A DNA stretch of 33,336 bases. Source: Myxococcaceae bacterium (GTDB taxonomy: Bacteria > Myxococcota > Myxococcia > Myxococcales > Myxococcaceae). The DNA lies in contig JALHOS010000033.1 of NCBI GenBank assembly GCA_022842905.1, forward strand, positions 1 to 33,336. The letters run 5' to 3'. Of this stretch, positions 19,546 through 24,229 are shown piece after piece. The number at the start of each line of letters is the position of its first letter. Within the stretch, counting starts at the first letter, position 1. The position numbers and the translations under genes were made by a program. The notes under the pieces were generated by a model, which was not told where the DNA came from, made no database searches, and was given only the letters and a program-made list of their open reading frames with translations.

Positions 19546-21651
19546 ATGGAGCGCGGCTCCGTGGACACCTTCAAACAGTTGGGACCCGCTGCCCGGCAGC
19601 GGCGCCTCGAGGCTGGTGGGGCCAAGCCGTGGAAGGACGACTGGGCGGACATGTTCCGCTCGTGGCTCTCGTCCTGGAAGGTGCTGGGCGAGCCGGGCGT
19701 CGTTCGCGACGATCTGTTGTCCGGCCTGACGGTGGCGGCGGTCGCGCTGCCCCTCAACCTCGCGCTGGCCGTGGCGTCCGGCTTGCCTCCGTCGGCGGGC
19801 ATCGTCGCGGGCGCGCTGGGCGGCGTCGTGGCGGCGCTCTTCGGTGGCTCGACGCTGCAGGTGACGGGGCCGGCGGCGGCGCTGTCTCCGCTGGTGTTGG
19901 TGGTGGCGCACCGCTTCGGCGGCATCGGCGTGGCGGCCATGACGCTCATGGTGGGCGTCATGTTGATCGTCCTGGCGTTCACGCGCGCCGGTCACCTGGC
20001 CAAGCACGTGCCGGAGTCGGTGCTCGCCGGCTTCACCACCGGCGTGGGCCTCAAGCTGCTCGACGGTGAGCTGCCGAAGTTCCTGGGCTTCTCGTACAAG
20101 GTGGCCGAGCTCGCGTCGATGATGCACCGGCCCGAGTGGCTGCACGAGGTGCAGTGGGCGTCGGTGGTGTGCGGGCTCTTCGTGGCGCTGACGGTGGTGG
20201 TGCTGCGGCCGTACAAGCGCGTGCCCGCGGCGCTCATGGCGATCGGCGTGGTGACGTTCGTCGCGCACTACGTCAACTGGGACATTCGCCGCATCGGCGA
20301 GATCCCCACGCAGCTGCCGCAGTGGTCGCTGCCCGTCGTCGCCGACGAAGAGTGGCTCGATCTCTTCTTGGCGATGTTGCCGCTGGGCCTCTTGGCCGGC
20401 GTCGAGTCGCTGCTGTCCGCCGCCGCGGTGGACCGCATGCTGCGCGAGTCGCGCCCGGACAAGACGCACACGCCGCACCAGCCGAGCCTGGAGCTGTTCG
20501 GCCAGGGCCTGGCCAACCTGGTGGTGTCCTTCTTCGGCGGCATGCCGGTGACGGGCGTGGTGGTGCGGTCCGGCCTCAACGTGCAGTCCGGGGGCCGATC
20601 GCGGCTGGCGTCGATTACGCACGGCGTGCTGCTGGGGACGGCGGTGCTCGTCATCGCCCCCATCATCATGGAGACGCCGGTGGCGGCGCTTTCCGGGCTG
20701 CTGCTCGTCATCGGCATGCGCCTCATCGAGGTGAAGACGCTCGTTCACCTCTACAGCGTCTCGAAGCTCGAGGCGCTGGCCTTCATCGTCGCGGGCGCCG
20801 GCACGGTGTCCGGGAAGCTCATGGAGGGCCTGGGGCTCGCCATGGCCATTCACCTCGTCAACCGGTGGATGACGCGGGGCAAGGACGCCGAGCTGCAGCA
20901 GATCGCCCACGAGCTGGAGCCCGGGGTCCGCGCCATGTTGCCGAAGGCGGCGGCGCACGCGCGGGGCCTGCACCCGGAGTCGCCGGTGGGCGCGGGCGGC
21001 TGGCTCGCGCACGTCAAGGGCAAGGCGGTGATGGCGCCGACGTCGTACGTGCACCCGAAGGCGAGCGTCATCGGCCACGTCGTGCTGGGTGACAACGTGC
21101 ACATCGCCGCTGGGGCGTCGGTGCGCGCCGACGAAGGCACGCCCTTCTTCATCGGAGCCAACTCGAACGTGCAGGACGGCGTCGTCATTCACGCGCTGAA
21201 GGAAAAGCGGGTGGTGGTCGCCGGCGAAGAGTGGGCCGTCTACGTGGGGCAGAACGTGTCCATGGCGCACGACGCGCTGGTCCACGGGCCTTGTTACGTC
21301 GGCGACGACACCTTCATCGGCTTCAAGGCGGTGGTGCACGACGCGGTGGTGGGCAAGCACTGCTTCATCGGCATCGGCGCGGTGGTGGTGGGCGTCGAGG
21401 TGCCCGACGGGCGCTTCGTGCCCCACGGCACCATCGTCGACACGCAGGACAAGGTCGACGCGCTGCCCCAGGCCAACCACACCCAGCACCTGTTCAACGA
21501 AGACGTCGTGGACGTGAACAAGGGCCTCGCCGCGGCGTACCGGGCGGCGGCGCTGACCGGAAGGGCGCCGCGCGCCGCAGCCAGCGAAGGCCGCGGCCCG
21601 GGCAACGTGTGGGACGAAGCGTGGGCGCGGTCCGGCGGCGGCAAGTTCTAA
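19546..21651 (+). CDS. SulP anion transporter fused to CcmM-like gamma-carbonic anhydrase
   Basis: A 701-residue fusion. Residues about 55-450 form a SulP transporter of 10-14 helices, with DDLLSGLTVAAVALPLNLAL, GGSTLQVTGPAAAL, and ESLLSAAAVDRMLRESRPDK followed by ELFGQGLANLVVSFFGGMPV. Instead of the usual STAS domain, residues 495-680 are a left-handed beta-helix gamma-carbonic anhydrase of CcmM type: VHPKASVIGHVVLGDNVHIA, RADEGTPFFIGANSNVQDG, and zinc ligands His549, His575 and His580. The tail DTQDKVDALPQANHTQH also matches CcmM. The protein likely moves bicarbonate and interconverts it with CO2 at the inner face. It is first in an operon with two SPFH genes. Fusions of SulP to beta-class carbonic anhydrases are known; the gamma-class version appears unusual. 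Confidence 0.93.
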   Translation: MERGSVDTFKQLGPAARQRRLEAGGAKPWKDDWADMFRSWLSSWKVLGEPGVVRDDLLSGLTVAAVALPLNLALAVASGLPPSAGIVAGALGGVVAALFGGSTLQVTGPAAALSPLVLVVAHRFGGIGVAAMTLMVGVMLIVLAFTRAGHLAKHVPESVLAGFTTGVGLKLLDGELPKFLGFSYKVAELASMMHRPEWLHEVQWASVVCGLFVALTVVVLRPYKRVPAALMAIGVVTFVAHYVNWDIRRIGEIPTQLPQWSLPVVADEEWLDLFLAMLPLGLLAGVESLLSAAAVDRMLRESRPDKTHTPHQPSLELFGQGLANLVVSFFGGMPVTGVVVRSGLNVQSGGRSRLASITHGVLLGTAVLVIAPIIMETPVAALSGLLLVIGMRLIEVKTLVHLYSVSKLEALAFIVAGAGTVSGKLMEGLGLAMAIHLVNRWMTRGKDAELQQIAHELEPGVRAMLPKAAAHARGLHPESPVGAGGWLAHVKGKAVMAPTSYVHPKASVIGHVVLGDNVHIAAGASVRADEGTPFFIGANSNVQDGVVIHALKEKRVVVAGEEWAVYVGQNVSMAHDALVHGPCYVGDDTFIGFKAVVHDAVVGKHCFIGIGAVVVGVEVPDGRFVPHGTIVDTQDKVDALPQANHTQHLFNEDVVDVNKGLAAAYRAAALTGRAPRAAASEGRGPGNVWDEAWARSGGGKF

Positions 21652-21671
21652 GTAGGGCAGGAGGCGACGAG

Positions 21672-22544
21672 ATGATTGGTGTCGGTGTGGCAGTTGGCCT
21701 GGGTGTGTACCTGCTGTGGCTGCTCAAGGACTGCGCGTTCCGCGTGGAAGAAGGCCATGCGGCGGTGCTGGTGCGCTTTGGCCGCGCGCTGCGGGAAGGC
21801 GCGGCGCTCAAGGTGTTCGGGCCGGGCTTGCACGGGAAGTGGCCGTGGGACCACGCCGTGCCCGTGTCGCTGCGCGAACAGGTGCTGGACCTGTCCGGCG
21901 AGCACGGCGGCCAGAAGCTGATGATGGAAGACGGCACCGAGCTGCGGCTGGACGCGCGGCTGCGGTTCTCGGCCGAGCCCAAGTTCCTCGAGGACCTGCT
22001 GTTCGGGCTCAAGGCGCCGCTCGATCACCTGACCGGGCTCTTCACCTGCGTGCTGCGCAACGAAGTGGCCAACGTGGCGTCGCCCAAGCCCGACGCCGTG
22101 GTGGCGCTGCGCAGCCCCGAGGCGGCCTTGGGCGCGTACGGCGTGCTCCGGCGCGAGCGCCGCCTCATCAACGACAACATGGCGCGCTTCGCCGAGCAGC
22201 ACCTCGGAGAGCACTACGGCGTGCGCTTCGGCGCCGTCGACGTCATCGACCTGCTGCCCCCCGAAGAGCTCAGAGACGCGCTCAACGGCGTGACCCAGTC
22301 TCGGGCTGACGCGCAGGCCGCCCGGCTGCACATGGAAGCGGACTGCATGCAGCGCGTGCTCGCGGCGGAGCGGGGCATCGCCATCGCCCAGGCGCGGGCG
22401 CGGGCCGCGGCGAAGGAGCTGAGCACCCTGGGTGGGTTTCTCGGCACGCTGGCCGAGCAAGGTGTGCTCGAGGACTACGTCCAGCGCCGCCGCGACGAAG
22501 TGCTGTCCGACACGCGCACCGTCTACGTGAAGGAGGCCCGCTGA
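21672..22544 (+). CDS. SPFH/band-7 membrane protein (first of pair)
   Basis: A 290-residue protein preceded by a good GGAGG ribosome binding site 20 bases after the transporter stop. Residues 1-20 form one N-terminal membrane anchor (MIGVGVAVGLGVYLLWLL). The SPFH domain follows (FRVEEGHAAVLVRFGRAL, then FGPGLHGKWPWDHAVPVSLR, and MMEDGTELRLDARLRF), as in stomatin/prohibitin proteins. A C-terminal Ala/Glu-rich helical stretch (AQARARAAAKEL) supports oligomerisation. SPFH proteins form large membrane rings and scaffold or stabilise other membrane proteins. Its stop overlaps the next start by one base. The partner is probably the SulP-carbonic anhydrase fusion. Confidence 0.86.
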   Translation: MIGVGVAVGLGVYLLWLLKDCAFRVEEGHAAVLVRFGRALREGAALKVFGPGLHGKWPWDHAVPVSLREQVLDLSGEHGGQKLMMEDGTELRLDARLRFSAEPKFLEDLLFGLKAPLDHLTGLFTCVLRNEVANVASPKPDAVVALRSPEAALGAYGVLRRERRLINDNMARFAEQHLGEHYGVRFGAVDVIDLLPPEELRDALNGVTQSRADAQAARLHMEADCMQRVLAAERGIAIAQARARAAAKELSTLGGFLGTLAEQGVLEDYVQRRRDEVLSDTRTVYVKEAR

Positions 22545-23500
22545 TGCGCTCCGCCTTGGCCGCAGAGCTGAACTCCGCGCTGGCCGCCGAAGGGCTGGGC
22601 AGCGTGCTGCCGTCCGAAGAGCTGGTGCCGCTGGTCGGTGGGCTGGCGCTCGGCGCCGCCGTGCTGCCGCTGCTCGGTCGGCTGTTCAAGCTCTTCTTCG
22701 TCGAGGTCGAAGACGCCCACGCGGTGCTGGTGACGCGCTTCGGCAAGCTCGTCGCGACGCTCAAGGAGCCGGGCCTGGTGTTCTGGCCCAGCAAGCCCAT
22801 GCCGTGGGTCAAGGTGAAGTCGGTGTCGCTGGCCAAGGACTTCCGGCTGCTGTCCGGCGTGCACGTCAACGACGCCCGCGGCACGACGCTGCTGGTGGAC
22901 CTGTGGTTCGAAGTCCGCGTGGTCGACCCGGTGCGCGCGCTCTTCGCGGTCGAAGACTGGGACCGCGCGGTGAAGAGCTTGGTCATGCACGCGGCCACGT
23001 CGATTTTGGGTGCGCGGGAGTTCGGTGAGATTTTGGCCGACCGCGACGTGTTGGCGCGGCTGCTCAAGGACGAAGTGGCGCCGGAGACGGCGCGCTGGGG
23101 CGTGCAGGTGGAGCACACGTTCATTCGCAACGTGACGCTGCTGCCCGAAGTGGCGCGGCACATGTTCAGCACCGTCTCGGCGCGGCTCGACCAAGCCAAG
23201 GCCCTCATCGACGAGCAGGCCCGCCTGGACGTCGCGCAGCTCGAAGCGGACACGCAGGCGAAGGTGGCGGCGCTCGTCGGCGAAGCCAAGGCGCAGTACC
23301 CGCTGGAGATTGGGAAGGCCCTGGCCGAGCTCAAGCGCAAGAAGCCGGTGTACGAGGCGTACGCCGAGCTTTACCGCCTCTCGCAGCTGCGCCCGCAGCG
23401 CACCGTCGCGTTTCGTGGCTTCTCGAGCAGCGACGTCCGCGCCGTCGAGGGCGCCATGCTGGACCTCCAGCCCGGCGGCGAGCCCAAGCCGGTGCTCTAA
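22544..23500 (+). CDS. SPFH/band-7 membrane protein (second of pair)
   Basis: A 318-residue protein starting one base into the previous stop (TGATG), with AGGAGG upstream. A hydrophobic region at residues 28-52 (LVPLVGGLALGAAVLPLLGR) is followed by an SPFH domain with VEVEDAHAVLVTRFGKL, EPGLVFWPSKP and DARGTTLLVDLWFEVRVVDP. A coiled-coil region follows (ARLDVAQLEADTQAKVAALV). It is distinct from the first SPFH protein in sequence, so the two probably form a hetero-oligomer like HflK/HflC or prohibitin 1/2. It is not HflKC by context, since no hflX or purA is present. Confidence 0.86.
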   Translation: MRSALAAELNSALAAEGLGSVLPSEELVPLVGGLALGAAVLPLLGRLFKLFFVEVEDAHAVLVTRFGKLVATLKEPGLVFWPSKPMPWVKVKSVSLAKDFRLLSGVHVNDARGTTLLVDLWFEVRVVDPVRALFAVEDWDRAVKSLVMHAATSILGAREFGEILADRDVLARLLKDEVAPETARWGVQVEHTFIRNVTLLPEVARHMFSTVSARLDQAKALIDEQARLDVAQLEADTQAKVAALVGEAKAQYPLEIGKALAELKRKKPVYEAYAELYRLSQLRPQRTVAFRGFSSSDVRAVEGAMLDLQPGGEPKPVL

Positions 23501-23506
23501 AGACCC

Positions 23507-24229
23507 TCATTCCACCGGCTGGACGAACTGGCTGTGCTGTGAGGGCGGCTGGCGCTTGCGGTCGTAGTGCGTCTTGAGCGTGTAGCCCACGCCGGCCACG
23601 CCGGCCGCCGCCGCCGGGAAGAGCAGGGTGAGGTGTTGGAGGTGCGGGTACACGAGCGCCGCCGCGACGCCGCCCGCGACGAAGCCTGAGAGCAGCGTCA
23701 GGTGCAGGACGAAGCGGTGTTTGTCGAAGCGGTCGAAGTGGCGCAGCGCGTGCCCGAGGTTGATGCCCAGGTCCGTGACGACGCCGGTCATGTGCGAGGT
23801 GCGCACCACCGCGCCGCTGAAGCTGCTGGCCAGCGCGTTCTGCAAGCCCGCCGCGGCCGCCGCCGTCATGTTGGCCCACACGCCGTCGGCGCCGAAGCCC
23901 CAGGCCGCCGCGAAGAGGAGCAGCGATTCCACCACCAGCGCCACGCCGTAACGCCGGCTGTGGTGCAGCGTCGCGTCGCGAATGATGAAGCCGGACAGCA
24001 TGGCCCCCAAGAAGAAGGACGCGACCATGCGCAGCGCGTTCGCCCCCTGCGCGGGCTGGCCGGCGATGAAGTCCGTCGCCACGTGCGACAGCGGGCCGGT
24101 GACGTGGGTCAGGCCTTGGTGGGTGATGTCGAGCAGACCGACGGCGTTCACCGAGCCGGCGAGGCTGGTGAGCAAGAAGCCGCCGACGAGGACCCACAGC
24201 GGGGCCTTCTTGGTGAAGTGGCGCTCCAC
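23507..24229 (-). CDS. DUF1275 (YoaK-like) membrane protein
   Basis: A 240-residue inner-membrane protein with about six helices. Start (GTG) MERHFTKKAPLWVLVGGFLL leads to LAGSVNAVGLLDITHQGLTH and VTGPLSHVATDF. The middle segment is AAAAAGLQNALASSFSGAVV followed by RTSHMTGVVTDLG. These are signatures of the DUF1275/YoaK family, whose function is unknown. The stop lies 6 bases from the stop of the SPFH operon, so the units are convergent. The C-terminal tail is soluble and rich in Gln/Pro. Confidence 0.9.
   Translation of the reverse strand: MERHFTKKAPLWVLVGGFLLTSLAGSVNAVGLLDITHQGLTHVTGPLSHVATDFIAGQPAQGANALRMVASFFLGAMLSGFIIRDATLHHSRRYGVALVVESLLLFAAAWGFGADGVWANMTAAAAAGLQNALASSFSGAVVRTSHMTGVVTDLGINLGHALRHFDRFDKHRFVLHLTLLSGFVAGGVAAALVYPHLQHLTLLFPAAAAGVAGVGYTLKTHYDRKRQPPSQHSQFVQPVE

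Follow-up and report, generated by a model that had tools for sequence, protein, structure and literature searches.

A SulP–gamma-carbonic anhydrase fusion in Myxococcota and its dedicated pair of SPFH genes

The fusion gene and its domains

The window analyzed here, a stretch of 33,336 nucleotides from a Myxococcaceae contig, carries a SulP–gamma-carbonic anhydrase (CA) fusion gene at 19546-21651 of the forward strand, followed on the same strand by two genes for SPFH proteins. The fusion is a single open frame of 701 aa, running from ATG at 19546 to TAA at 21651 with no stop between the SulP and gamma-CA domains. Its SulP/SLC26 membrane domain (residues 54-437; 19705-20856, forward strand) was delimited by PF00916, by alignments with BicA, SLC26Dg and SULTR4;1 and by an SLC26 fold match, with residues 54-415 matching the Sulfate_transp model PF00916 at 209.7 bits (E 7e-62; cut-off, 23.2). 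The gamma-CA domain of the Cam/CcmM class (residues 489-669; 21010-21552, forward strand) was defined by profile and structure-sequence matches. Between the two lies a variable linker (residues 438-488; 20857-21009, forward strand), located from sequence identity, model confidence and a STAS search and occupying the site at which a STAS domain is expected. A variable C-terminal tail (21553-21648, forward strand), delimited in the 17-protein alignment described below, completes the protein.

The sequence-only reading had described a SulP transporter joined to a gamma-CA in one chain, with no STAS domain and distinct from the SulP–beta-CA fusions. Pfam and profile matches along the uninterrupted 701-aa frame confirmed the joining of the two domains, and a Pfam search of the whole protein matched neither STAS nor the beta-CA domain Pro_CA, bearing out the other two points; a known beta-CA-type fusion was rejected as the identity of this protein on the latter ground. 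STAS domains are typical of SulP proteins, not universal, and the nearest other SulP proteins of the phylum have a longer C-terminus that appears, by eye, to be STAS-like.

Across 17 aligned fusion proteins, mean pairwise identity was 77% in the CA domain, 68% in the membrane domain, 38% in the linker and 33% in the tail, so that the CA domain is the best-conserved segment of the fusion, ahead of the transporter domain. An AlphaFold model of the fusion was of low confidence at residues 452-532 and weak in the CA half. Despite its variability, the tail ends in an invariant Phe701: in all orthologues the end of the tail (window positions 21640-21648) retains the final Phe, usually as Arg-Phe or Lys-Phe and often after WDExW. 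This terminal motif is possibly a docking site for the SPFH partners.

Residues 494-669 matched both the CcmM model NF053794 (E 7e-59; 199.7 bits, which does not pass the cut-off of 550) and the Cam model NF040597 (E 2e-54), and the domain aligned with structures of CcmM (3kwc, E 6e-50) and Cam (1thj, E 1e-45). Three motifs quoted earlier as CcmM-like (RADEGTPFFIG, NVQDGVVIHA and DTQDKVDALP) occur as written in the 701-aa translation. The zinc ligands His549, His575 and His580 (codons at 21190, 21268 and 21283, forward strand), previously described as intact, are present and invariant in the 17 aligned proteins, as are Arg527, Asp529, Glu530, Asn541, Gln543 and Asn658. From this invariant active site, the fused CA is predicted to be catalytically competent.

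The label 'CcmM-like' proved too narrow. A phylogeny of the domain against CcmM had been proposed; in a small tree whose references were two CcmM, two Cam-like and seven standalone sequences, the fusion CAs grouped in one separate clade (support 85/96) next to CcmM and Cam, with an unsettled sister group, the tree being weak because of its few references and long branches. Residue 667, which aligns with the C-terminal redox cysteine of 3kwc, is Ala, Arg, Thr, Lys or Val in the 17 proteins, and the protein continues for just 32 residues beyond the CA domain, without the C-terminal SSUL repeats of CcmM. Given the separate clade and the unconserved cysteine, we describe the domain as a gamma-CA of the Cam/CcmM class, not as CcmM; this class assignment stands, whereas the specific tie to CcmM is not supported, considering also the close CcmM and Cam scores and the lack of Rubisco reported below. 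The fusion CA thus shares with Cam and CcmM its class, zinc and active-site residues and C-terminal helix, and differs in being tethered to a membrane transporter and in lacking the SSUL repeats, the CcmM cysteine and a Rubisco.

Gamma-CAs are trimers and SulP proteins are dimers, so the tail could cluster transporters. This mismatch, together with the missing CcmM cysteine, would fit a mainly structural or trimerization module in place of STAS, with little catalysis, like the CcmM gamma-CA domains that are inactive in some cyanobacteria. We consider such a role very unlikely, as none of the 17 proteins departs from the three zinc histidines or from the active-site Arg, Asp, Glu, Gln and Asn.

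Distribution of the fusion and its SPFH partners

We searched 195 genomes of the phylum, counting the source genome, and found the full-length, stop-free fusion in 17. These fusions scored at least 755 bits; among the matches listed across the 195 genomes, the next ones reached at most 262 bits and covered the SulP part only. A further carrier outside this set, the Myxococcales MAG L001 (CAIXGW010000309.1; 57% identity), was the sole match of one exact-peptide-word scan over public genome contigs. The fusion in the 17 genomes and L001 showed 55-67% identity. Because the same full-length protein recurs in 17 of 195 genomes and in L001, a chance or assembly join is excluded, and with it a frameshift origin; the earlier concern that the reading frame might be an assembly join is thereby settled. 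Hosts belong to five genera of the source family, plus one genome (G186) from another family in the phylum. Neither plasmids (at 80% coverage of the protein) nor viral contigs held a copy. In genus g26, the module is present in five genomes and missing from congeners G148 and G152, a patchy pattern that suggests loss or horizontal transfer. As for the CA itself, fused copies scored 284-395 bits in a phylum-wide comparison of Cam/CcmM-type gamma-CAs and the next match only 65 bits; within this phylum, the Cam/CcmM-class CA domain is confined to the fusion.

The two genes downstream encode Band_7 proteins. SPFH1 (21672-22544, forward strand; 290 aa; PF01145, 57.9 bits against a cut-off of 23.6) is HflC-like by sequence (nearest to HflC, E 1.5e-12) and is preceded by a Shine–Dalgarno sequence, AGGAGG, at 21659-21664 (forward strand), 7 nt before its ATG. 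SPFH2 (22544-23500, forward strand; 318 aa; PF01145, 68.7 bits against 23.6) is stomatin/QmcA/HflK-like, nearest to stomatin (E 2e-14) and also matching HflK. The two genes overlap by 1 nt in the window. Using ten window proteins as tblastn queries, we found the SPFH pair directly downstream of the fusion in 16 of 16 flanked loci, and none of the remaining window proteins next to the fusions at these loci. Gaps across loci were 11-100 nt between the fusion and SPFH1 and -4 to +5 nt between SPFH1 and SPFH2.

Profile searches detected SPFH2 orthologues in 16 of the 17 fusion genomes (325-511 bits) and in 0 of the 178 others (best, 124 bits); in the remaining fusion genome (G067), SPFH2 is missing because the contig ends inside SPFH1. 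Fisher's test on this co-occurrence gave 1.5e-22, a value that overstates independence because the genomes are related. An all-against-all comparison of flanking ORFs revealed no other gene common to three or more genera, and the few shared ones lay at differing positions; a larger conserved gene cluster was accordingly rejected, only the SPFH pair being common to the fusion loci. A gene for a DUF1275 membrane protein (23507-24229, reverse strand) lies convergent with the operon in the window and is not conserved at other loci. Overall, the fusion, SPFH1 and SPFH2 form a conserved three-gene operon in which the SPFH pair is dedicated to the fusion. This partner pair, absent from the sequence-only reading, is a more unusual feature than the fusion itself.

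In every SPFH1 and SPFH2 protein, the 15-residue stretch preceding the single TM helix is free of Lys and Arg; the 15-residue stretch that follows the helix carries one to three such residues, with a single protein as the exception. Escherichia coli HflC and HflK, unlike these, have two Lys/Arg before the helix; HflK and HflC are N-in proteins with a single TM helix and a periplasmic SPFH domain. Under the positive-inside rule, the sole basis for this assignment, the Lys/Arg distribution suggests that the SPFH domains are cytosolic, in a topology opposite to that of HflK/C. They would then lie on the same side as the CA, since the C-termini of SulP proteins are cytosolic and the fused CA should be as well. 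The AlphaFold model of SPFH1 was poor (pLDDT 62), and its best PDB fold matches were prohibitin, HflK/C and stomatin.

HflK/C regulates FtsH, and an SPFH ring might influence protein stability rather than enclose cargo. With SPFH1 closest to HflC and SPFH2 also matching HflK, the pair might be a regulator of transporter turnover through HflK/C-like FtsH gating instead of a scaffold for transport. We regard this as improbable: in the 195 genomes the pair occurs only with the fusion and so does not serve FtsH in general, the topology predicted for it is the reverse of that of HflK/C, and the locus has no other conserved neighbor and hence no conserved protease gene.

Ion coupling, substrate and genome context

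By alignment and fold match, the closest solved relatives of the SulP domain are BicA, SLC26Dg and SULTR4;1. Two residues invariant in the 17 proteins are informative about coupling. Glu287 (20404-20406), in TM8, is aligned to a Glu in SLC26Dg and to the Na+-site Asp in BicA. Arg341 (20566-20568), in TM10, aligns with Arg393 of SULTR4;1 at a position where BicA has Gly. H+-driven transport by SULTR4;1 requires Glu347, with Arg393 lending support to the anion site; the BicA Asp serves Na+, and most mammalian SLC26 proteins of the exchange type have no acidic residue at the TM8 position (PMC8298490). Glu287 and Arg341 predict H+ coupling or exchange rather than Na+ symport, without identifying the anion, and their pattern is also that of H+/sulfate symporters. 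The Na+/bicarbonate transporter BicA has the SulP fold in common with the fusion, the membrane domains being roughly 26% identical; the fusion differs from it in its Glu for the Na+-site Asp, the extra TM10 Arg, the CA tail and the lack of STAS, and at 149.9 bits it does not pass the cut-off of 880 for the NCBIfam BicA model NF050096. We infer bicarbonate as the substrate, which the sequence of a SulP protein cannot itself reveal. On thermodynamic grounds, a 1:1 H+/HCO3- symporter with a cytosolic CA would amount to facilitated CO2 movement and could not alone concentrate carbon; either the stoichiometry differs, then, or the role is equilibration or the supply of a counter-ion.

The source genome (98.9% complete) has no match to RuBisCO_large. 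The fusion therefore does not belong to a carboxysome system, and carbon concentration for a carboxysome or Rubisco was rejected for this genome. The genome contains three beta-CA matches elsewhere than in the fusion, by which we also rejected the fused CA as sole CA; beta-CA matches occur in all 17 fusion genomes. With no Rubisco and three beta-CA matches, the role of the fusion is neither Rubisco-based carbon concentration nor that of a sole source of CA.

No other SulP is detectable in the source genome and no sulfate permease CysT scores above its cut-off, which makes sulfate transport or sulfate/bicarbonate exchange the main rival interpretation. Here, SulP would be an anion exchanger importing sulfate or another anion for HCO3-, and the gamma-CA would make the counter-ion HCO3- from respiratory CO2. 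SLC26 proteins commonly exchange HCO3-, and Arg341 corresponds to Arg393, an anion-site residue of SULTR4;1, which is a sulfate/H+ symporter. The fusion nonetheless has the TM8 acidic residue that is mostly missing from mammalian exchange-type SLC26 proteins (PMC8298490), and the search for sulfate permeases covered SulP and CysT among the uptake families. On balance, we think exchange unlikely.

A proposed membrane assembly and its relatives

The reading we prefer, to which we give an even chance, is that the three genes specify one membrane assembly: an inorganic-carbon transport metabolon with a dedicated SPFH scaffold that perhaps encloses it. In this proposal, the SulP domain would carry bicarbonate, alone or together with H+, across the inner membrane, and the gamma-CA on its cytosolic C-terminus would interconvert HCO3- and CO2 at the mouth of the transporter, so that the transported species would be consumed or supplied on the spot. 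Bicarbonate transport would thus be coupled to hydration, as the architecture of the protein suggests. On the cytosolic face, SPFH1 and SPFH2 would assemble into a hetero-oligomeric ring or dome, scaffolding and possibly enclosing the transporter-anhydrase. Without Rubisco, the assembly would probably provide inorganic carbon for anaplerotic or biosynthetic carboxylases, or serve pH/CO2 balance. Like bicarbonate as the substrate, H+ rather than Na+ coupling, the cytosolic position of the SPFH domains and the formation of a physical complex are inferred parts of this proposal.

There are precedents for such an arrangement: in erythrocytes, AQP1 and trimeric UT-B are enclosed by domes of stomatin, FtsH is likewise enclosed by HflK/C (PMC12407830, preprint), and rhodopsin-flotillin operons are known in bacteria (PMC10308929). 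Given these SPFH rings or domes and flotillin operons, a transporter-anhydrase in a dedicated SPFH scaffold is favored. As in those domes, SPFH proteins here would surround a membrane protein, and HflK and HflC are likewise a two-gene pair; the present pair differs in being co-inherited with a transporter-CA fusion and in a predicted topology opposite to that of HflK/C, and its enclosing role is our extrapolation. In the flotillin-associated rhodopsin clusters, too, a membrane protein gene consistently lies beside an SPFH gene (PMC10308929), although the cargo differs and one large flotillin takes the place of the two small SPFH proteins. More tentatively, and with some doubt, an inner-face dome of SPFH1 and SPFH2 enclosing the SulP–gamma-CA could constitute a membrane-attached, protein-walled inorganic-carbon compartment without Rubisco. 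Such an enclosed complex, equally speculative, would differ from both a carboxysome and a free transporter and might be a bacterial counterpart of stomatin-enclosed transporters.

Whether a transporter and a CA work as a physical 'transport metabolon' has long been in dispute, the two being distinct proteins; the fusion unites them in a single chain. With SPFH partners exclusive to it, the fusion also offers a genetically simple setting in which to ask how SPFH scaffolds serve a transporter. Both the SulP–gamma-CA fusion and its SPFH operon are apparently unreported: a search of the open-access literature by title and abstract found no report of a SulP–gamma-CA fusion or an SPFH-CA operon, and the profile search for homologues covered this phylum alone.

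SulP–beta-CA fusions were reportedly described by Felce and Saier in 2004. They are treated as already known in passages of PMC3924187 and PMC11423575 that cite Felce and Saier 2004. These fusions and gene pairs resemble the present system in coupling SulP to a CA in one protein or operon. They differ in the beta fold of their CA, whereas the CA here is of the gamma (Cam/CcmM) class, an unrelated fold, and the fusion gene is always followed by two SPFH genes; SulP-CA coupling would thereby extend to a second, unrelated CA fold. The classical arrangement occurs in the same phylum. For example, one 837-aa frame (G098:C8:188421-190556) combines SulP and Pro_CA, and a SulP gene adjoins a separate beta-CA gene in many relatives (G137:C122, G121:C1, G067:C37 and G068:C178). 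Some genomes carry such an adjacent SulP/beta-CA gene pair as well as the gamma fusion, and G091-G093 have, besides the gamma fusion, another SulP ORF some 840 aa long.
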